Shown here: piece after piece, positions 1-7,653 of the stretch | How the letters are laid out: each line of letters opens with the position of its first letter | Numbering within the stretch: the first letter of the stretch is position 1 | Assembly (NCBI GenBank): GCA_029210545.1 | Contig: JARGFV010000114.1 | Location: forward strand, 1-7,653 | From: a bacterium | GTDB lineage: Bacteria > BMS3Abin14 | Reading direction: 5' to 3' | DNA: 7,653 bases | Position numbers and translations under genes: made by a program | The notes under the pieces: model-generated | The model's database searches: none | What the model saw: only the letters and a program-made list of their open reading frames with translations | What the model was told of the DNA's origin: nothing

Positions 1-162
1 ATGTCCTACTATAACATTGCTCTTGCCAACGAGAACCTGGGCCAGTTTAATGAAGCCCTGGTCAACTACCAGAACTTCATGCGTTACTGGCTGGGGGATC
101 CGAAATACAACTCGCTCGCCCAGCAAAAAATGACGATATTGAGAAAGAAAACCGGCAACTAA
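1..162 (+). CDS. C-terminal fragment of a TPR-repeat protein (5' end outside window)
   Basis: The frame is open from base 1 to a TAA at 160-162, giving 53 residues. The segment from residue 3 to about 30 fits the C-terminal helix pair of a tetratricopeptide repeat: YNIALANENLG, then FNEALVNYQNFM, with the usual Leu-Gly, Ala and aromatic positions. It is followed by a short basic tail ending KKTGN. The ATG at base 1 is probably an internal methionine, because the sequence starts inside a repeat and no ribosome site can be seen. TPR proteins are protein-interaction scaffolds; the substrate or partner here cannot be told. Only 43 bases separate its stop from the ATG of the next gene on the same strand, and no terminator lies between, so the two are probably co-transcribed. 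The family call rests on one repeat only. Confidence 0.7.
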   Translation: MSYYNIALANENLGQFNEALVNYQNFMRYWLGDPKYNSLAQQKMTILRKKTGN

Positions 163-205: not shown

Positions 206-1252
206 ATGAGATTCTTCACAATTTGCCTGATTATTGCCGGTACATTACTTGTCACCCAGATGCCGGCTTTGGCCTTCAGTAATCAATCAACTCCCGGATC
301 CAAGGGCGCAGACGCACCTTTACAGCTTACCAACGACTCCGGCGACATGTCCTATCGCCCCCCAAAGGTGATAATCAACGGCATTAATTTGGACGGGGAG
401 CTTATCCTGTCCCAGTTGAAACTCAATGCTCTTTCCACCATCTCCCTTCACGGAATGGTAGATTTCGATCAATACTGCGAAAAACATATCCAGCCGGTTC
501 TGCACCAGATGATCGGGCGTGAACTGCTTGTACGCGCCGCCAAAGATGCCGGCGTCACGGTAACGGAAAAGGAGTTCAGCGATTATTATGAAAAAAGCCT
601 TTCCATGCTGGGAGGGACCGAGAAAATGTCAAAGTTCCTCGCCCCACTGAAGCTGGAGATGAACCAGCACCGGGCTCTTTCCCTCCACACCTACCTGGCA
701 CGCAAGTATGCTACCGAATTCCTGGCGCCCAAAGCGTTGTCTTCGGACCAAGTAAGGGACTACTACGATGAAAAAATTAACGAGATCAGCGGGGTGGAGA
801 GTCTGACCTACAGCTACGTGGGCGTGAATTTCATCGGCGACGAGGTGGACGAGGCCTTCCTGCGTGACATGAAACAGGACAAGACTTCGGTTCGGTCCCG
901 GGCCGACATCAAAGCCCTTGTAGACCGGTATAAGAAACGGCTGGGCGGCAAAGCAGCGGTAGCCTGGGTATTCGACAACACAACGGACTCCCGGGTAGGG
1001 GGGATCGTCTACGAAAAGGGCCGGGATGTAGCACCCGGGTCCGCCACCTACTTCCGGAACGTCAAGAAGGACGGAGAGGTATTCTACATCATCTTGTTCG
1101 TGGAATCGTTCATCCCCCGCCAGGGATCCACTTTCGAGGAGGTTAAAGGGTCTCTTGGATCACGTATAACAGGGGAGGGGATGAATGCCGCCATCGTAAC
1201 CAAAGTGGAGGAACTTCGCAACAAAGCCGTGATAAAGATCGTGGAACCCTAG
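206..1252 (+). CDS. Secreted SurA-N / parvulin-like peptidyl-prolyl isomerase family protein
   Basis: 348 residues from the ATG at 206. Residues 1-23 form a Sec signal peptide ending ALA before FSNQ, with no lipobox cysteine, so the protein is probably periplasmic. Residues 54-175 resemble the helical SurA N-terminal chaperone module: VIINGINLDGE, a helical stretch with HQMIGRELLVRAAKDAGV, then VTEKEFSDYYEK. Residues 178-305 look like a degenerate parvulin (PpiC) domain: a DQVRDYYDEK entry helix, a TYSYVGVNF strand, YFRNVKKDGEVFYIILFVE and the closing FEEVKGSL helix. The middle of the rotamase domain is poorly conserved by eye, so chaperone function is safer than isomerase activity. It follows a TPR gene closely and converges on a second SurA-like gene across a shared terminator. 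Family call is fairly sure; catalytic activity and client are inference, the client most plausibly being the nearby cytochrome. Confidence 0.75.
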   Translation: MRFFTICLIIAGTLLVTQMPALAFSNQSTPGSKGADAPLQLTNDSGDMSYRPPKVIINGINLDGELILSQLKLNALSTISLHGMVDFDQYCEKHIQPVLHQMIGRELLVRAAKDAGVTVTEKEFSDYYEKSLSMLGGTEKMSKFLAPLKLEMNQHRALSLHTYLARKYATEFLAPKALSSDQVRDYYDEKINEISGVESLTYSYVGVNFIGDEVDEAFLRDMKQDKTSVRSRADIKALVDRYKKRLGGKAAVAWVFDNTTDSRVGGIVYEKGRDVAPGSATYFRNVKKDGEVFYIILFVESFIPRQGSTFEEVKGSLGSRITGEGMNAAIVTKVEELRNKAVIKIVEP

Positions 1253-1269
1253 CTCCACATCCTGTAAGG

Positions 1270-1311
1270 AAAAGTAAAGGGCGGACCGCGTGCGGTCCGC
1301 CCTTTACTTTT
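1270..1311. terminator. Bidirectional intrinsic terminator between convergent genes
   Basis: A perfect inverted repeat with 20-base arms (1270-1289 and 1292-1311) and a GC-rich core, GGGCGGACCGC. The loop is effectively four bases. On the plus strand the stem runs into TTTTT (1308-1312). On the minus strand the arm ends in TTTT followed by CC. It sits 17 bases after the stop of the plus-strand gene and 22 bases beyond the stop of the minus-strand gene, so it can end both transcripts. Confidence 0.9.
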
Positions 1312-1333
1312 TGGTTTCGGGATATTCGGCCGA

Positions 1334-3133
1334 TCATGGGTGGCCCGCAGGCCGTTGACCGCCACCCGGGACGATGATCTCGCTGGGGCCGCCGCGCTGG
1401 TGAAAACCACCAGGAGGCGACACGCCCCGAAGCGCTTTTTGCAAATCAAGCCACTCACCTATCACTTTGTCGATGACCTCTCGGGTGTAAAAATATTTCA
1501 CCGGGTTTGCTTTGCTCTGGCGCACGATGATATCGGAGCGCTGGTCGGAGCTGTTGTTGGTGGTGTACTGGGCCCTGACCAACTCCCGGACCTGGTCGTA
1601 GGGCGGCATTTCTCCACGGCGCTTACCGGTGATGCGGTAAACACCATAGGACAACCCGATGCCTATCGGTCCCGCAACTTCCCCGGAGGGGGTCTTCTCC
1701 AAAACAAGTAAAGTGGCCCGGTCAAAATCGCCGTCCTTGAACGTCCCAGAGAGCCTCTCTCCAGTGTCGGGAAGGCTCACCGCTGAAAGAGCCTCGTCCA
1801 GGGAGGTGCCGCTTTCCAGGAGTCCTCTGATCTTTTCAGCTGTTTCGAAGTCAATATCCCGGGCTCCATCCACGCTGAAAACACCTGGTTCATCGACGTT
1901 GCCAAACTTTTCGCGGTAAAAGGTATAAAGCTCTTCCTCAGTGGGTTCGACCTGGCGGGCAAGGGTTGCTATCATGGTGGTCGCCAGGCTGTACTTCTTC
2001 ACGCGGGCCAGGTTTTCCTGGACCATCGGGTCATCCCCGAAGCCCTGAGCCATCGCCTCCTCGGTCATAGCCAGACCTGGGCTCATCAGGTTAATCACCC
2101 TCACCCACGTTTCCAAGTTGTCGTCCGCGGGGCGGTCCACAGAGACCATAAGGTGATACGCATAGGTTCGCATAAACTTGAGGGTCACAGGGAAATTACC
2201 CACTAATGCTACCACCGCCTCAGGGTTATTTTCGCCCAGCGCTTTATTTAGGGCGTCATGTTTGATCTCAAGCGGATACTTTGAACGGACCTGTTCCAGG
2301 TACGCATTGACCATCCCGTTTTGAAGCTCGTTGCGATGGCGTGTCCTGATCCCGGTTTTCTCGGAGTCAGACAAGGGTCTTTTTTCATCCACGCGGAAGA
2401 TCGTGTAGCCAATGGGGGTGCGAATGATCTCCGAATGGCGGCCTTGTTCCACGTTTACCAGCTTACCAAGAATCTCATCCCCGTAGATATTTCCCATGGC
2501 CATGACCTGCCAGTCCTTGATCCCCCCTCCCCGCAGGGCAACGGGATCAATGCTGTATTCCGGGGCCAGGCCCTCTATGCGCTGACCCTCGTTAATGCGC
2601 GACAGGATGTCCTGGGCTGCCGCCAGATCCGGAAGAGTCAACTGGTGGAGTTTGAACGCCCTGGCGTCTTCGGGAATCAACTGAGCCAGAATTTCCTCCG
2701 GCACCACGAAATCCTTGCCTTTTAAACCCATAAAAGTGATGCCTATCCAGAAACGGCTTTTTACCTTCCACTGTAACCAGGTCTCCGCATCAACCTCAAG
2801 GCCTCTCTGCTTAGCCTCCAGAAACAGGTAGTGCCGTGACATGACCGTGTTAAGGGTCTCGCGGGCAACCGACTCGTAAGTATCTTCCGAGGAAGGCTTG
2901 GAGAAGAGGTCCATGAAGGCATCACTTAGCTCCTGCTTTTCAACAGGATACCCCCCGGCCTCCAATACAGGGCTACCCGGATCGGCCTCCCGCAGTGCGG
3001 CCACCTCGGCCTCCCCGACTGGCTGCTGTTCCACCTTTTCAAACGGCTTTTTCCCGCAGGATGAGATTACCGCACTAATCAAAACAAAGATTAAAACTGC
3101 CAAAAGCCGCTGACAGGAAAAACTGGATCTCAT
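1334..3133 (-). CDS. Double-module SurA-like peptidyl-prolyl isomerase, lipoprotein
   Basis: 599 residues from an ATG at 3131-3133, with GGGAGG (3139-3144) five bases upstream. The N-terminus is a lipoprotein signal with lipobox ISSC, placing the acylated cysteine at residue 26. The next residues, GKK, are not the Asp inner-membrane retention signal, so outer-membrane anchoring is possible. Residues 50-150 are a SurA-type helical segment. Residues 158-252 fit a parvulin domain: FKLHQLTLPDLAAAQDILSRI, LAPEYSID, GGGIKDW, then HSEIIRTPIGYTIFRVDEKRP. Residues 258-415 form a second helical segment and 415-512 a second, more diverged parvulin-like domain with EALSAVSLPDTG, GEVAGPIGIGLSYGVYRI and PYDQVRELVR. 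The tail from about 570 is Gly/Pro-rich. The usual role is periplasmic folding and prolyl isomerisation of exported proteins. It is last in the minus-strand series behind a terminator. The cytochrome as client is inference. Confidence 0.82.
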   Translation of the reverse strand: MRSSFSCQRLLAVLIFVLISAVISSCGKKPFEKVEQQPVGEAEVAALREADPGSPVLEAGGYPVEKQELSDAFMDLFSKPSSEDTYESVARETLNTVMSRHYLFLEAKQRGLEVDAETWLQWKVKSRFWIGITFMGLKGKDFVVPEEILAQLIPEDARAFKLHQLTLPDLAAAQDILSRINEGQRIEGLAPEYSIDPVALRGGGIKDWQVMAMGNIYGDEILGKLVNVEQGRHSEIIRTPIGYTIFRVDEKRPLSDSEKTGIRTRHRNELQNGMVNAYLEQVRSKYPLEIKHDALNKALGENNPEAVVALVGNFPVTLKFMRTYAYHLMVSVDRPADDNLETWVRVINLMSPGLAMTEEAMAQGFGDDPMVQENLARVKKYSLATTMIATLARQVEPTEEELYTFYREKFGNVDEPGVFSVDGARDIDFETAEKIRGLLESGTSLDEALSAVSLPDTGERLSGTFKDGDFDRATLLVLEKTPSGEVAGPIGIGLSYGVYRITGKRRGEMPPYDQVRELVRAQYTTNNSSDQRSDIIVRQSKANPVKYFYTREVIDKVIGEWLDLQKALRGVSPPGGFHQRGGPSEIIVPGGGQRPAGHP

Positions 3134-3138
3134 TTAAA

Positions 3139-3144
3139 CCTCCC
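3139..3144 (-). promoter_or_regulatory. Ribosome binding site of the SurA-like lipoprotein
   Basis: GGGAGG on the minus strand, five bases before the ATG. It supports the 3133 start and hence the lipobox reading of the N-terminus. Confidence 0.75.
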
Positions 3145-3180
3145 GTGTAACCTTGCTGTTGCAAACTATCCGAATAAAGA

Positions 3181-3204
3181 GGGGGTGGCAATCATGCCCC
3201 CCCC
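3181..3204 (-). terminator. Intrinsic terminator downstream of the redoxin gene
   Basis: Ten-base arms (3181-3190 and 3195-3204) with one mismatch and a four-base loop form a hairpin of G and C runs. On the minus strand it is followed by TCTTTATT. It lies 61 bases past the redoxin stop and 47 bases before the start of the next minus-strand gene. The tail is not a pure U run, so partial read-through into the lipoprotein gene is possible. Confidence 0.7.
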
Positions 3205-3265
3205 TGGAAATAGATCAAAGAATAGATCACATTATGGTGACAATTAAAATGAAAAATGACGACAA

Positions 3266-3760
3266 TTATTTATATAGCGCGTTGATCTCTTCTTCACTGG
3301 ATTTGTCGTATCCGGAGAATACCTTAACTACCTTACCATCCTTGTCAACGAGAACCGAGGCGGGCGTCACTGACAGGCCGAAAGCGCCGGCAACATTGAA
3401 CTCCTGGTCCAGGTAGATGGGGTAATCCGGGTAATCCCGCATATACTGCTTCTGGTAGCGCTTTACGGCCGGTGCCCCTGCAAGGTCGATAGAAATGAGG
3501 ACGTTATTCTGGTCCTTATGCTTGCGCAACACCCACTTGATCTCGTTGAGGCAATTACGGCACGACGTGTTGAAAAATATCAGGGCCGAGGGCTTTCCCT
3601 GAGTAATGGATTTTAGCATCAATTCTTTACCATCTAATGTCTTCACAGAGAGGGTATCCGGAAGCATTTCCCCGGCAAGGACCGGTCCGGCGAGAACAGG
3701 CGCGACCCCAAGGGACAGCACCATCAGGCCTGCCAGCATTATAAGTAAAAGTTTACGCAT
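3266..3760 (-). CDS. Exported thioredoxin-fold thiol-disulfide oxidoreductase (TlpA/ResA-like)
   Basis: 164 residues from an ATG at 3758-3760. Residues 1-24 or 1-29 are a signal peptide; the VLAGPVLAG duplication offers two possible AxA-type cleavage points. The thioredoxin fold is clear: ALIFFNTSC strand, active-site CRNC at 67-70, and the cis-proline motif VTPASVLVD with Pro133, followed by DKDGKVVKVFSG. The length is normal for a TlpA/AhpC-TSA redoxin. In cytochrome c maturation such proteins (ResA, CcmG/DsbE) reduce the CXXCH cysteines of apocytochromes before haem attachment, and the 14-haem cytochrome gene immediately upstream fits that role. The active site is CRNC rather than the CEPC seen in ResA and the WCxPC pattern of many CcmG proteins, and Trp before the first Cys is replaced by Ser. 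The redox partner is therefore uncertain. Membrane anchoring by an uncleaved signal is an alternative. Confidence 0.85.
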   Translation of the reverse strand: MRKLLLIMLAGLMVLSLGVAPVLAGPVLAGEMLPDTLSVKTLDGKELMLKSITQGKPSALIFFNTSCRNCLNEIKWVLRKHKDQNNVLISIDLAGAPAVKRYQKQYMRDYPDYPIYLDQEFNVAGAFGLSVTPASVLVDKDGKVVKVFSGYDKSSEEEINALYK

Positions 3761-3767
3761 GGTAACA

Positions 3768-3775
3768 CTCCTTCC
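3768..3775 (-). promoter_or_regulatory. Ribosome binding site of the redoxin gene
   Basis: GGAAGGAG on the minus strand, seven bases before the ATG at 3760. A strong site that fixes the start in front of the signal peptide. Confidence 0.8.
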
Positions 3776-3819
3776 GACTAAAATTTCGAAAAAGATCCTG
3801 GGATCGTTTCCTTATCCCG

Positions 3820-3849
3820 ATACTACTGCCAGGTACCATTTTCCGTAAA
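3820..3849 (-). promoter_or_regulatory. Possible sigma-70-type promoter for the redoxin gene
   Basis: On the minus strand TTTACG (3844-3849) and TAGTAT (3820-3825) are separated by 18 bases, a modest match to -35/-10 elements. They lie between the cytochrome terminator and the redoxin start. Just downstream is a short dyad GATCC-TG-GGATC (3794-3805), which could be an operator or a transcript hairpin. Both matches are weak and could be chance. Confidence 0.25.
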
Positions 3850-3857
3850 TAACAAAG

Positions 3858-3890
3858 AGGCGCGTGGGGGGATATTCCCCCCACGCGCCT
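3858..3890 (-). terminator. Strong intrinsic terminator downstream of the cytochrome gene
   Basis: A perfect 15-base inverted repeat (3858-3872 and 3876-3890) with a three-base loop and a core of CGCGTGGGGGG. On the minus strand it is followed by CTTTGTTATTTACGG, a U-rich tail. It sits 37 bases beyond the cytochrome stop and separates that message from the redoxin gene. Confidence 0.85.
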
Positions 3891-3927
3891 TACATTAATT
3901 TGGATCTACTACAGCAAACTGCATGCG

Positions 3928-6186
3928 TTACTTAAGGTGGCAGGAGCTGCAGAGCACCTGCTCGTTCACATACTCGGCACCAGCACCGCCCAGCACGGGG
4001 ACGTTGGCTTCAAGGATGTAGTGACCATCAGAAGCCAACTTGCCTGCCCACCAGGCGGTGGAAGCATCGTGGGCCCGGTGACAGGACTCGCAGTTGATGC
4101 CGCTGGTGGCTGTAGGCGTCACGCCGTTATCGGCGACCGTCGCATTGGGAAGCGTTGCAGCCGACATGGCACCTGTTGTTTCAGGCTGGACCGGATGGGT
4201 CGTGTTGGCACCAGGGGCCGCACCGTGGCAATCGGTGCAAAGGAAGTCGCCCGTAACGGTGTTGGTAGCACCACCACCATCATCGACAGCGTTACCCGAG
4301 GGAGACAGCATCATACCGATAGTGTCTTTTGTGCCGGCCTCGTTGTCGCCCACGTTGTTGGCCGTCTGCACTATATAGGTATCTGTCTTGATCAAGTGGC
4401 ACGAGGTACAGATCAGTTCGCCGCCCGTGCCGTAGAACGCAGCACCTGCACCTGCTGCCGGGGTGACACTGTCTACAGCACCGGTTTCATTACCCCACTT
4501 GTACCCGGTAACGGTAACCGGACCGAGGAAGTGGGTGCCGTCCTGCTCAAGACCACCAACCTGCGCAGTGTACACAGAGGGGTTCAGCCCGTGGCAGTCC
4601 ACACACATGGTCGCCTCAGCGGCGTCACCGACCACACCAGGGAAAGCGGTGGCGTTGTTGTGAGCACCGCTGAAGTGACAGGTGGCGCAGCTCATGACGC
4701 CATCCTCAACGGCCGAAGTGGCGAAACGGTAAGGTGTGTTACTGCTGGTCCAGTCAACCACGGATGCGCTCTGGACGTCAGCTCGGTCAACAGCGTTCCA
4801 GGTCACGTCGGACCCGATCTCGGGGGGACCGCCGGCGCCGTCATCACGCAGTTCCGGGGTTGTACCAGTCCAGGTCACATCGATACCGGAGGGGTGGTGG
4901 CCGGTCTTGGAAGAAGCCGCATCGTGGCAGTCCTCACAGTAGACCCTCTGAAGCGAATAAGTGTCGGTGCTAGCCAAGTCGCTAAGCCTTGCAAAGTGCA
5001 TGTCGTGGCAGGACTGGCATACTATTGTCTCGTTGGGGGCAACTCCGCCCCATTTGGCGCCGTAACTGTTGGCCATAGCAACAATGTCCACCGAGACTCC
5101 CCACGGGGCCGCAGACTGGTAAGGGTGAGAGTACGTGGTTGCGGCACCTGGGCCGGCGGCGGGATCGGCGACGATGTCGTGGCAGCCGGCACACACGGCG
5201 GCAATAGCACCGGCGGCGGGGTTGCTATCCAGCGCCAGGAGGAAATTATAACCCCAGCCAACAGGCAAGGCGCCAACCTGGTTGCCGGCAAGGCCGTCGC
5301 CCACGGCGTAGGCGGTTTCGTCAACCTCGTTTGAGTGGGTCATGTGGCAGGTAGCGCAGTTGATCCCACCGGCAGAACCCTGCACGAACTTGCCGCCCAG
5401 GTTCCAGTGCTCGACGTCGTTACCGGCTGCAACCGAGGTGATCTCCACAGCGAGGCTGGCCCAGGTGCTGTCGAAGCGGATCGAATAACCGGCAACACCA
5501 AACTGGTAGAGGCTTGAAGCAACCGTATCAGCCAGGGCCCGGTTATCGGTGGGATGGTTCTGCCTGGATCCACCCACGGCATCGCTGGTGGACGTGGCAG
5601 CGCGGTTGATGTGGCAGTCGTTGCAGAGGGTCAGGAAATTCCCCTCAGCCACGGCCTCGCCGATGGCGTTGTCCCGGAGGAACGGCCGCTGGACGTTATC
5701 GTGGGGGTTGTGGCACGACTGGCAGCCGATCCTGTCGGTGGCAGCGTCGTAGCCGTAGATGCCCGCGAGGGCCGGATCCGGGTCGGCGCCGGTGATGTCG
5801 CCCCAACCTAGGGTACCGGTAACCAGTAAAGTAGCGTCACGGCCGTGGGCTCCGTCAAGGACACCCTGAAACGGCACGATCTGCTGCGTGGCAGGAGAGG
5901 GAGTGACCATGTCGCCGTGGCAATCCCAACACATCTGGGCGATGGCATCGCCTTCCCAAGCGGACCCGCCACCGGAGACAGCGCCGAGACCGCTGGGGAA
6001 CAGGCCGACGCCGGCTGCCCCGTGGGGCACGTGGCAGAAGGAGCAGGCGCCCTGCTGGGCGGTGGCACCAGAAAGGTTATCGTGGGCCACAACGTTGTGG
6101 TTGGTGTTGATCAGGGCCGCCATGGCACCGGTCGCGGCCAGGGCCACGATGGCAATAGCGGTGATCAGGATTCCAAGTTTCTTCAT
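3928..6186 (-). CDS. Secreted 14-haem c-type cytochrome, doubled-CXXCH family
   Basis: 752 residues from an ATG at 6184-6186, with AGGAGG eight bases upstream. Residues 1-23 are a signal peptide ending AMA, with no lipobox. Fourteen CXXCH haem sites begin at residues 48, 86, 155, 188, 277, 332, 390, 417, 500, 528, 593, 650, 699 and 746, and all 28 cysteines belong to them. They group into seven pairs of the doubled-CXXCH type (CXXCHxxH followed by CXXCHD/G). Seventeen other histidines (including 55, 114, 162, 211, 284, 354, 397, 430, 509, 552, 664, 706, 722) are enough for bis-His ligation of all haems. The last haem site is two residues from the C-terminus. The linkers are rich in Gly, Ala, Thr and Val. 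The chain is strongly acidic, with roughly three Asp/Glu per Lys/Arg. The role is electron transfer in the periplasm, at the cell surface or outside the cell. Filament formation is possible but not shown. Confidence 0.95.
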   Translation of the reverse strand: MKKLGILITAIAIVALAATGAMAALINTNHNVVAHDNLSGATAQQGACSFCHVPHGAAGVGLFPSGLGAVSGGGSAWEGDAIAQMCWDCHGDMVTPSPATQQIVPFQGVLDGAHGRDATLLVTGTLGWGDITGADPDPALAGIYGYDAATDRIGCQSCHNPHDNVQRPFLRDNAIGEAVAEGNFLTLCNDCHINRAATSTSDAVGGSRQNHPTDNRALADTVASSLYQFGVAGYSIRFDSTWASLAVEITSVAAGNDVEHWNLGGKFVQGSAGGINCATCHMTHSNEVDETAYAVGDGLAGNQVGALPVGWGYNFLLALDSNPAAGAIAAVCAGCHDIVADPAAGPGAATTYSHPYQSAAPWGVSVDIVAMANSYGAKWGGVAPNETIVCQSCHDMHFARLSDLASTDTYSLQRVYCEDCHDAASSKTGHHPSGIDVTWTGTTPELRDDGAGGPPEIGSDVTWNAVDRADVQSASVVDWTSSNTPYRFATSAVEDGVMSCATCHFSGAHNNATAFPGVVGDAAEATMCVDCHGLNPSVYTAQVGGLEQDGTHFLGPVTVTGYKWGNETGAVDSVTPAAGAGAAFYGTGGELICTSCHLIKTDTYIVQTANNVGDNEAGTKDTIGMMLSPSGNAVDDGGGATNTVTGDFLCTDCHGAAPGANTTHPVQPETTGAMSAATLPNATVADNGVTPTATSGINCESCHRAHDASTAWWAGKLASDGHYILEANVPVLGGAGAEYVNEQVLCSSCHLK
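3937..6045 (-). repeat. Seven doubled-CXXCH haem-binding units in the cytochrome
   Basis: The protein repeat spans residues 48-750. Distances from the first to the second CXXCH in each pair are 38, 33, 55, 27, 28, 57 and 47 residues. In pairs 1, 2, 3, 4 and 7 the first motif is followed by xxH (VPH, NPH, MTH, DMH, RAH). In pair 5 the histidine is four residues on (FSGAH). In pair 6 it is absent (CTSCHLIK). The second motif is nearly always CxDCH or CxGCH followed by D or G. This suggests growth by unit duplication with later divergence of pairs 5 and 6. Confidence 0.85.
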
Positions 6187-6194
6187 TACATTTT

Positions 6195-6200
6195 CCTCCT
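6195..6200 (-). promoter_or_regulatory. Ribosome binding site of the cytochrome, with a start-stop overlap
   Basis: AGGAGG on the minus strand lies eight bases before the cytochrome ATG at 6186. An earlier ATG (6189-6191) is only three bases from it and is followed directly by TAA, giving ATGTAATG. The second ATG has normal spacing and opens the signal peptide, so it is the true start. Confidence 0.8.
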
Positions 6201-6308
6201 GGAAGGCTCAACAAAACAACTAGTTAGGTTTCGACTTGCGGGGTTGATCCCCACGGTCAGGCTCGCCCCAGTTCCTGTGATACCGGGCTGGTACGGCGCG
6301 CCTGCTTC

Positions 6309-6395
6309 TCATACCGCTGATGGCGCCCACTGCGCCATGTTGCCTTGTACCGGCGGGCGGTAGGGGTGCTTGGTTCTCGCCGGTAGCTTATTCAT
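6309..6395 (-). CDS. Possible 28-residue leader peptide or small ORF
   Basis: On the minus strand an ATG at 6393-6395 opens 28 codons ending in TGA at 6309-6311. The peptide starts MNKLPARTKHPYRPP and ends MAQWAPSAV. A near-perfect Shine-Dalgarno, GGAGGTGG (6396-6403), abuts the ATG, with further purines (GAGGGG, 6402-6407) at a more usual six-base spacing. After the TGA the same frame stays open for 40 more codons to a TAA (6186-6188) that overlaps the cytochrome ATG by one base. The ORF lies over the first three leader stems, so its translation would alter their folding, as in attenuation. It has no cysteine and no signal peptide, and I recognise no family. An open frame of this size can arise by chance, so the ribosome site is the main support. 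Confidence 0.3.
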   Translation of the reverse strand: MNKLPARTKHPYRPPVQGNMAQWAPSAV

Positions 6396-6438
6396 CCACC
6401 TCCCCTCTCTTGTTGAGTTATTTTGATCGTCTACCTTA

Positions 6439-6466
6439 GGCCAGGAAAGGACACCCTTCCCTGGCC
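6439..6466 (-). terminator. Hairpin after the NHL gene, weak terminator or processing site
   Basis: Twelve-base arms (6439-6450 and 6455-6466) pair with one G-U or mismatched position around a four-base loop; the core is GGCCAGG. It starts 13 bases past the stop of the fn3-NHL gene. The minus-strand bases that follow are TAAGGTAG, with no U run, so complete intrinsic termination is doubtful. It may let some transcription continue into the cytochrome leader or protect an mRNA 3' end. Confidence 0.5.
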
Positions 6467-6479
6467 AGCGAAAGTCTCT

Positions 6480-7653
6480 TTATTTTTCCTCCAGAGAGGG
6501 ATACTGAACGGCATCTGCCTTGTCCCTCTGGAGGTTGAAATACGCTAGAGTTTTGCTCATGGACTCCAGGAGTACCATGTTCTTGCCGTCCTCGGTGATC
6601 ACCAGGCCCGCCGGTGTCAACGTGTTGACGTTGGCTTTCTTGGTTTCATTGGTGACAATATAGGTCGGCAGCCATCCCCCGTTTATCTGATCCTTGTAAG
6701 CTTCCTGGTATCTGAACACCTGAACGTTGCCGGCCCTGCCGTCGGTAGCGTATAGATCACCTGCCGCATCCTGGGAGATCCCCTTGATGGAGGTGAAGGT
6801 GCCGAAAATGGTGCCGCCCCCACCAATGGAATTTTTTTCACCCTCCGGAGTCACCTGGACTATCCGGTTAATGCTGGAGACAAATATATTACCTTCATCA
6901 TCAATGGTCAATGTCCCCGGCTTGTCGATTGCCCAGGCCGGGCTGTTGCTGACCTCCTCACCGGATTCATAAAGGATCGTTTCGATAAACTCCCCTTCCG
7001 GAGTTACGCGAAGGAGCCTGCTGTTGGCCAGGTCACTAATGACCAGGTTGCCTTCCAGATCGATTGCGACATCGCTGGTGACGGTCTTTTCCTTCCTCTG
7101 GACCACAACTTCCTCACCACTGGTATTCATACTTATGTAGTACAGGGTGCCCTCTTCCTCAGGCGGTCCTTCCGGGGGTTTAGGGAGATCCAATTTCTGA
7201 ACGACCTCGCCACGGTAATTTTCTTCCCCGATGGTGGTAGTGCCCTCGGGATCCACCACCCAGATCTGACCGGATGGAACGTGGGCGATGTAGATCAGTT
7301 CACAATCTTTGCTCCAGGTAATCCCCCTGAACTGCTTCGCAGTTGGAATAAGCATCTCGAGATCCCACAACGCCTCAGGAGCCTTCACGTTTTCGGTGAT
7401 GTAAAGGTTGTTGGCGGAGAGAGCCAGCCTGTCGCCACACAGTTCGAAATCTGCCGGGAACTGTTCGAGATCCGCCCTGTAGACCAACTGTGCCGGCAGG
7501 GCGTGAACCTGAAACTCGAGGCGCGCGCGACCCTTGTCCGCAGCCGACTCCACCATGAGGGTGGCCTCGATGAGGTCCGACAACGTGGAAGCCTTGCCGG
7601 TGTTGTCCTTGGACTTGACGGCGTATTGGTAAACAACTCCCGCCTCAACCTGG
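6480..7653 (-). CDS. fn3 / NHL-repeat beta-propeller protein (N-terminus outside window)
   Basis: The frame is open from the window edge (first full codon at 7650-7652) to a TAA at 6480-6482, at least 390 residues. A TTG at 7583 could be called a start, but it has no ribosome site, and the frame continues upstream with VVYQYAVKSKDNTGKAS, the last strands of a fibronectin type III domain. The true gene therefore extends further. After the TTG come about 60 linker residues, then a propeller: SGQIWVVDPEG (residues 104-114 from the TTG), a classic NHL repeat at 170-200 (DVAIDLEGNLVISDLANSRL), and others near 224-250 (IDDEGNIFVSSINRIVQVTPEG), 268-292 and 325-350. NHL propellers act as binding scaffolds. 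Similar proteins occur near multihaem cytochrome genes in Geobacter-type genomes (recalled, not checked here). It is upstream of the cytochrome on the same strand, separated by 293 bases. Confidence 0.8.
   Translation of the reverse strand, partial: QVEAGVVYQYAVKSKDNTGKASTLSDLIEATLMVESAADKGRARLEFQVHALPAQLVYRADLEQFPADFELCGDRLALSANNLYITENVKAPEALWDLEMLIPTAKQFRGITWSKDCELIYIAHVPSGQIWVVDPEGTTTIGEENYRGEVVQKLDLPKPPEGPPEEEGTLYYISMNTSGEEVVVQRKEKTVTSDVAIDLEGNLVISDLANSRLLRVTPEGEFIETILYESGEEVSNSPAWAIDKPGTLTIDDEGNIFVSSINRIVQVTPEGEKNSIGGGGTIFGTFTSIKGISQDAAGDLYATDGRAGNVQVFRYQEAYKDQINGGWLPTYIVTNETKKANVNTLTPAGLVITEDGKNMVLLESMSKTLAYFNLQRDKADAVQYPSLEEK

Follow-up and report, generated by a model that had tools for sequence, protein, structure and literature searches.

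A candidate maturation and assembly gene cluster for a 14-haem cytochrome with OmcE-like and OmcS-like ends

Introduction

How nanowire cytochromes are folded, loaded with haem and mounted is a disputed question, studied mostly in Geobacter. In the 2025 work of Shen et al., OscD is said to be propeller-like and OscH reportedly a chaperone of the prolyl-isomerase type. For the Geobacter osc operon, the proposed roles are in OmcS folding (OscH), secretion (OscE, F and G) and morphology (OscD) (PMC13194489, citing Shen et al. 2025). A second arrangement, described in SEEP-SRB1 and Desulfuromonadales, is an operon of a PPIase, a 26-haem and a 16-haem cytochrome and a six-bladed beta-propeller (Skennerton et al. 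2017, PMC5539420).

The locus described here shares its principal parts with both. As in osc of Geobacter sulfurreducens, an apparently nanowire-type cytochrome is linked to a beta-propeller and a prolyl-isomerase-type (parvulin-type) chaperone; as in the SEEP-SRB1/Desulfuromonadales operon, a PPIase-type protein accompanies large cytochromes and a propeller, and the double-parvulin proteins of the two arrangements are homologous. If the reading developed below is right, a compact gene set accompanies a fused OmcE/OmcS-type cytochrome across unrelated bacteria. This would supply a short parts list for nanowire maturation, and would make it possible to ask whether covalent joining of units takes the place of polymerisation.

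Gene content of the locus

The stretch analysed (the window) is 7,653 bp long and constitutes the whole of contig C114, one of 241 contigs of a 2.7-Mb genome; the full extent of the cluster therefore cannot show in it. Five genes are confirmed as open reading frames at the places first annotated. The minus strand carries, in order of transcription, a cut fn3-NHL gene, a 14-haem cytochrome, a ResA-like thioredoxin and a double-module lipoprotein. The plus strand carries the final 53 codons of a TPR gene, followed by a 348-aa exported SurA-like gene. The features are:

1-162, plus strand: C-terminal TPR end of a membrane-TPR (TMTC/PMT-like) protein, from matches to C-termini in loci L028 and L031
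206-1252, plus strand: exported SurA/PEB4-like protein, a probable chaperone whose parvulin domain is degenerate, from profile comparison and from relatives at the corresponding position in L028 and L030
1269-1312, no strand assigned: 20-bp perfect hairpin, a probable bidirectional terminator, from its position between convergent genes and its U-run
1334-3133, minus strand: lipoprotein of two tandem PrsA/SurA-like modules lacking the parvulin catalytic histidines, from Pfam, AlphaFold, Foldseek and a residue check
3266-3760, minus strand: exported ResA-like thioredoxin with CxxC, a probable cytochrome-cysteine reductant, from sequence profiles
3858-3890, minus strand: 15-bp hairpin directly 3' of the cytochrome gene, with hairpins at this position in all six loci examined
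3928-6186, minus strand: 14-haem c-type cytochrome with an OmcE-like tetrahaem N-terminus, four middle haems and an OmcS-like hexahaem C-terminus
6480-7652, minus strand: fn3-NHL beta-propeller, its 5' part lost at the contig end; complete relatives are exported

Much of the first-pass annotation stands, including the exported thioredoxin-fold protein (ResA-like, with its CxxC), the 14-haem count and the double-module PPIase-type lipoprotein (Rotamase/Rotamase_2 by Pfam, two modules in the AlphaFold model). Other parts need amending. The propeller gene matches NHL/SGL, with NHL repeats over the cut-off, but the gene runs off the end of the contig, and only some of the fn3 part falls inside the window. 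The statement that little else is present overlooks the TPR fragment at 1-162. Its translation matches the C-termini of complete relatives of 641-650 aa (L028:3087-5012 and L031:12555-14507), with strong TPR matches and a weak PMT_2 match below the Pfam cut-off; the window holds the tail only.

The fn3 stretch at window positions 7540-7652 is, by eye, near-identical to the start of the L030 fn3-NHL gene (6539-8140) and to a stretch of L028:11876-13555. Near-identity between clusters, with a contig ending inside one of them, suggests gene conversion or a repeat-broken assembly.

Recurrence of the gene set

The same genome carries further copies of the cluster. Contig C105 has all parts of the set, and C24 has the fn3-NHL, 14-haem, thioredoxin and double-parvulin genes with a complete TPR gene nearby. 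On a third contig, C3 (L143:7726-17177), an fn3-NHL gene directly precedes the 14-haem gene and three thioredoxin genes lie within about 8 kb; the double-parvulin gene is absent, and 7- and 8-haem proteins are encoded near. Within the same phylum, genome G003 has the complete set, and a GIY-YIG nuclease-like gene lies there between the SurA-like and double-parvulin genes (L028:6172-6702). Genome G010 has the fn3-NHL, 14-haem and double-parvulin genes without the thioredoxin. In genome G002 (contig C1), an fn3-NHL gene is followed by a cytochrome N-terminus that is cut by an N run (L097:9294-9393) after about residue 124; the N run joins the cytochrome gene to unrelated sequence.

More distant lineages retain the arrangement. 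In a deltaproteobacterial MAG (L036) the fn3-NHL gene is followed by those for the 14-haem protein, the thioredoxin and a parvulin, in that order. A Deferrisomatales MAG has one copy with 14-haem, thioredoxin and double-parvulin genes (L037) and a second with NHL, thioredoxin and double-parvulin genes, with a 14-haem frame between the NHL and thioredoxin genes (L131). The thioredoxin gene is missing in two Nitrospirae MAGs (L035, L043), which have the NHL, 14-haem and double-parvulin genes. One 14-haem homologue (L038) stands among unrelated genes with none of the neighbours.

These associations were counted, over all reading frames, in 57 loci fetched by the cytochrome profile alone. An NHL gene is present in 51 and a parvulin-type gene in 19; neither occurs in 19 control stretches, evenly spaced, 20 kb long and all from one related genome. 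Among 12 genomes of the phylum, the full double-parvulin gene and the cytochrome are found together in three and neither is found in eight, the twelfth being G002. Recurrence on two more contigs, with neighbour frequencies far above the control, establishes that the grouping of the genes is not chance. The membrane-TPR gene, present in 11 of the 57 loci against one of the 19 control stretches (E<1e-3), shows no clear enrichment outside the phylum beyond TPR cross-hits and is kept out of the main claim; the SurA-like and TPR proteins are tied to the cluster within the window's phylum only.

The first-pass annotation had proposed a maturation and assembly module around the cytochrome, to be abandoned if cytochrome homologues mostly lacked these neighbours or if the PPIases proved unlinked to cytochromes. 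Neither is what was found, and co-occurrence is conserved across several lineages: on three contigs of the genome, in G003, in L036, in L037 and L131, and, minus the thioredoxin, in G010 and Nitrospirae. The module as proposed thus gains support from the co-occurrence of its genes. These data also bear on a more mundane explanation, that the neighbours are a general kit for folding envelope proteins which happens to lie near an abundant secreted cytochrome and has no specific action on it. Parvulins, thioredoxins and NHL proteins are indeed widespread, and the L038 homologue does without them. Against such a kit, the genome's three full-length double-parvulin genes all sit in the cytochrome clusters, its five other parvulin matches are partial and located elsewhere, the double-parvulin family and the cytochrome come and go together in the phylum, and gene order persists across distant lineages and is repeated on three of this genome's contigs. 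We therefore consider a general folding kit improbable.

The 14-haem cytochrome

The cytochrome is a 752-aa protein with exactly 14 CXXCH motifs, no lipobox and, by eye, a Sec signal peptide. Outside the CXXCH motifs, 14 histidines are conserved across 13 relatives, 13 of them invariant and one nearly so; their number fits bis-His ligation of all 14 haems. With a profile of relatives, the whole of OmcE (7tfs, residues 7-231) aligns to the first four haems (E=2.6e-21), the alignment including the N-terminal T-x-H-D motif, CHxPH, FLR and the terminal CxxCH. The whole of OmcS (6ef8) aligns to the last six, haems 9-14 (E=1.6e-9, with a composition bias of 18 bits). A control profile of 26-haem cytochromes matched OmcE at 1.9e-5 over about 30 residues and OmcS at 0.006. 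As judged from these alignments, the relation of the N-terminus to OmcE is firm, and that of the last six haems to OmcS is likely, if less secure given its composition bias. The AlphaFold model of the cytochrome reached a pLDDT of 31 and was left out of fold searches, so the likeness to OmcE and OmcS is one of sequence and haem order.

Multihaem proteins match one another weakly via CXXCH motifs, and the OmcS match is strongly composition-biased, which raises the question of whether an ordinary large multihaem cytochrome resembles OmcE and OmcS through convergence or CXXCH-rich composition. Against this stand the absence of any full-length match to the 26-haem control profile and an alignment that spans all of OmcE and takes in the motifs named above. 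Convergence or composition is accordingly a poor candidate in our judgement.

The expectation of one large cytochrome did not survive, as the genome has four 14-haem paralogues: that of the window and those on C105, C24 and C3. In a tree of 16 cytochromes, whose deep joins are unsure owing to long branches, the window copy groups with C105, G003 and G010, the C24 copy with Deferrisomatales, and the C3 copy with the Delta36b and Nitrospirae b copies.

The Deferrisomatales genome encodes 8-haem and 5-haem proteins as separate chains, and these match opposite ends of the 14-haem profile, which supports a history of fusion (or fission) as read from these sequences. Such split forms, an 8-haem first part and a 5-haem C-terminal part, are found at L136:12797-14374 with 8828-10492, at L137:6961-8556 and in L138; those in L136 and L137 adjoin fn3-NHL genes. 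A further large cytochrome, in a Deltaproteobacteria MAG (Dive96_bin4.232; L135:3865-7899, G103:C167), has 1,344 aa and 31 CXXCH motifs and comprises roughly six to seven OmcE-like tetrahaem units in tandem, with CSTRH replacing CXXCH in one unit; an NHL gene adjoins.

We tentatively propose, as an idea that may well prove wrong, that whole nanowire subunits have been fused into single polypeptides in several phyla. The 14-haem protein would combine an OmcE-like unit, a four-haem middle and an OmcS-like unit, and the 31-haem protein some six to seven OmcE-like units, forming wire segments that are held together covalently and accompanied by an assembly kit of their own, made up of a pseudo-parvulin chaperone, a thioredoxin and a propeller.

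The neighbourhood could also be read as an electron-conduit operon: a complex of propeller and cytochrome would transfer electrons at the surface, with the chaperones in a secondary role and no polymerisation of the cytochrome. The NHL gene is the most constant partner (51 of 57 loci), the C3 copy is just an fn3-NHL gene and a 14-haem gene, and the operon of PPIase, 26-haem and 16-haem cytochromes and propeller has no demonstrated filament (PMC5539420). Similarity to OmcE and OmcS at opposite ends points instead to filament-type cytochromes, and no outer-membrane channel, barrel or porin gene was recognised beside the cytochrome; we hold this reading to be rather unlikely, if the strongest of the three competitors.

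Chaperones and thioredoxin

The lipoprotein (599 aa) has Rotamase and Rotamase_2 matches in Pfam. Its AlphaFold model (pLDDT 83) comprises two PrsA/SurA-like modules in tandem, and SurA and PrsA are among the best Foldseek matches of the model; the parvulin fold is thus found by all three methods. The two catalytic histidines of an active parvulin are present in neither module: module 1 has Q and T at these positions, and module 2 likewise lacks both, as do most relatives, Geobacter-type ones included. Their absence argues for a holding chaperone rather than proline isomerisation, and from its residues the lipoprotein is probably such a non-catalytic chaperone. Its earlier description as a prolyl isomerase thus keeps the fold and a likely chaperone role and probably loses the catalysis. 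More broadly, the "prolyl isomerases" of such loci may be non-catalytic chaperones.

The second of the two SurA/parvulin-type proteins annotated at first pass, at 206-1252, is a weaker case than claimed. It is SurA/PEB4-like by profile (3rfw, E=0.0013), its own Pfam matches all fall below the cut-off, and a relative has a near-cut-off Rotamase_2 match. Profile comparison gave this small protein no significant match to the lipoprotein family (27.9% probability).

The thioredoxin (164 aa) has the features of the ResA/CcsX type, namely a thioredoxin fold, a CxxC (residues 67-70) and, by eye, an export signal; it scores 51 of the 170 bits of the NCBIfam ResA cut-off. ResB is encoded on contig C13, which indicates System II maturation in this genome, so that a ResA-like reductant would be a sensible neighbour for a protein that binds its haems through 28 cysteines.

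Transcription signals and regulators

The hairpin at 1269-1312 has an MFE of -37.7 kcal/mol (z -6.6). A strong hairpin lies directly 3' of the 14-haem gene in all six loci examined (the window, L028, L029, L030, L031 and L036), the sequences being unrelated; it could keep the cytochrome transcript in excess over those of the chaperones. Upstream of the C24 cluster are a sensor kinase and an NtrC-type sigma-54 response regulator (L031:350-4433), and a similar NtrC-type regulator is found at L028:14364-15716. Between regulator and fn3-NHL gene, both loci encode a four-helix-bundle protein of the 23S rRNA intervening-sequence type (L028:13660-14184, L031:4613-4951). Prompted by these regulators, a search for sigma-54 promoters near the cytochrome genes returned nothing above chance; sigma-70 promoter scans stayed at chance level, and an Rfam search returned no RNA family.

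Proposed function of the cluster

We consider it probable that the genes of this cluster are dedicated to maturing and assembling an extracellular multihaem cytochrome of the nanowire type. The 14-haem apoprotein would be exported by Sec, and the ResA-like thioredoxin would hold its 28 haem-binding cysteines reduced for the haem lyase of System II, whose gene lies elsewhere in the genome. The non-catalytic double-module lipoprotein and the second SurA-like protein may hold the long chain during haem attachment and passage to the cell surface, where the fn3-NHL propeller could bind or cap the cytochrome, as proposed for OscD. The chain would then serve as an electron conduit, all its haems bis-His ligated. 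Its resemblance to OmcE-like, middle four-haem and OmcS-like units joined in one protein makes it probable that the cytochrome is part of an extracellular wire or polymerises to form one. Counting against this dedicated cluster are the L038 homologue without neighbours, the C3 paralogue without a double-parvulin gene, and the Nitrospirae and G010 loci without a thioredoxin.

Comparison with known systems

No candidate for OscEFG-like channel genes was recognised in the loci read, and the cytochrome belongs to a different, fused family; membership in osc proper thus cannot be claimed. By analogy, the cluster may nevertheless work like an osc cluster. It differs in having a fused 14-haem cytochrome where osc has the hexahaem OmcS, in adding a ResA-like thioredoxin and a second SurA-like protein, and in occurring in several copies per genome. 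Compared with the SEEP-SRB1/Desulfuromonadales operon, it has a 14-haem cytochrome of a different family, a thioredoxin gene, fn3 on the propeller and another gene order. In Geotalea sp. SG265, a gene of the lipoprotein's family adjoins those for 26-haem and 16-haem cytochromes, and some 7 kb away is an OmcS orthologue (E=1.2e-109) that has an NHL gene as its neighbour.

The individual proteins compare similarly. OmcE is matched over its full length as a tetrahaem domain, at an E-value far below that of the 26-haem control, but the window protein is not a stand-alone tetrahaem subunit, as ten further haems follow in the same chain. The OmcS-like region is covalently joined to the OmcE-like and middle units. 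PrsA, SurA and PEB4 have the same fold and module layout as the lipoprotein, which differs in being lipid-anchored, in comprising two whole modules and in having both catalytic histidines replaced. The thioredoxin shares fold, CxxC and export signal with ResA/CcsX, but occurs as one per cytochrome cluster and not with ccs genes. An arrangement that the first-pass annotation did not recognise as described is therefore already known in its general form, the combination of PPIase, multihaem cytochrome and beta-propeller (PMC5539420; osc operon in PMC13194489); what is new is the family of fused 14-haem cytochromes, the thioredoxin dedicated to it, and the spread of the set in multiple copies and across multiple phyla.
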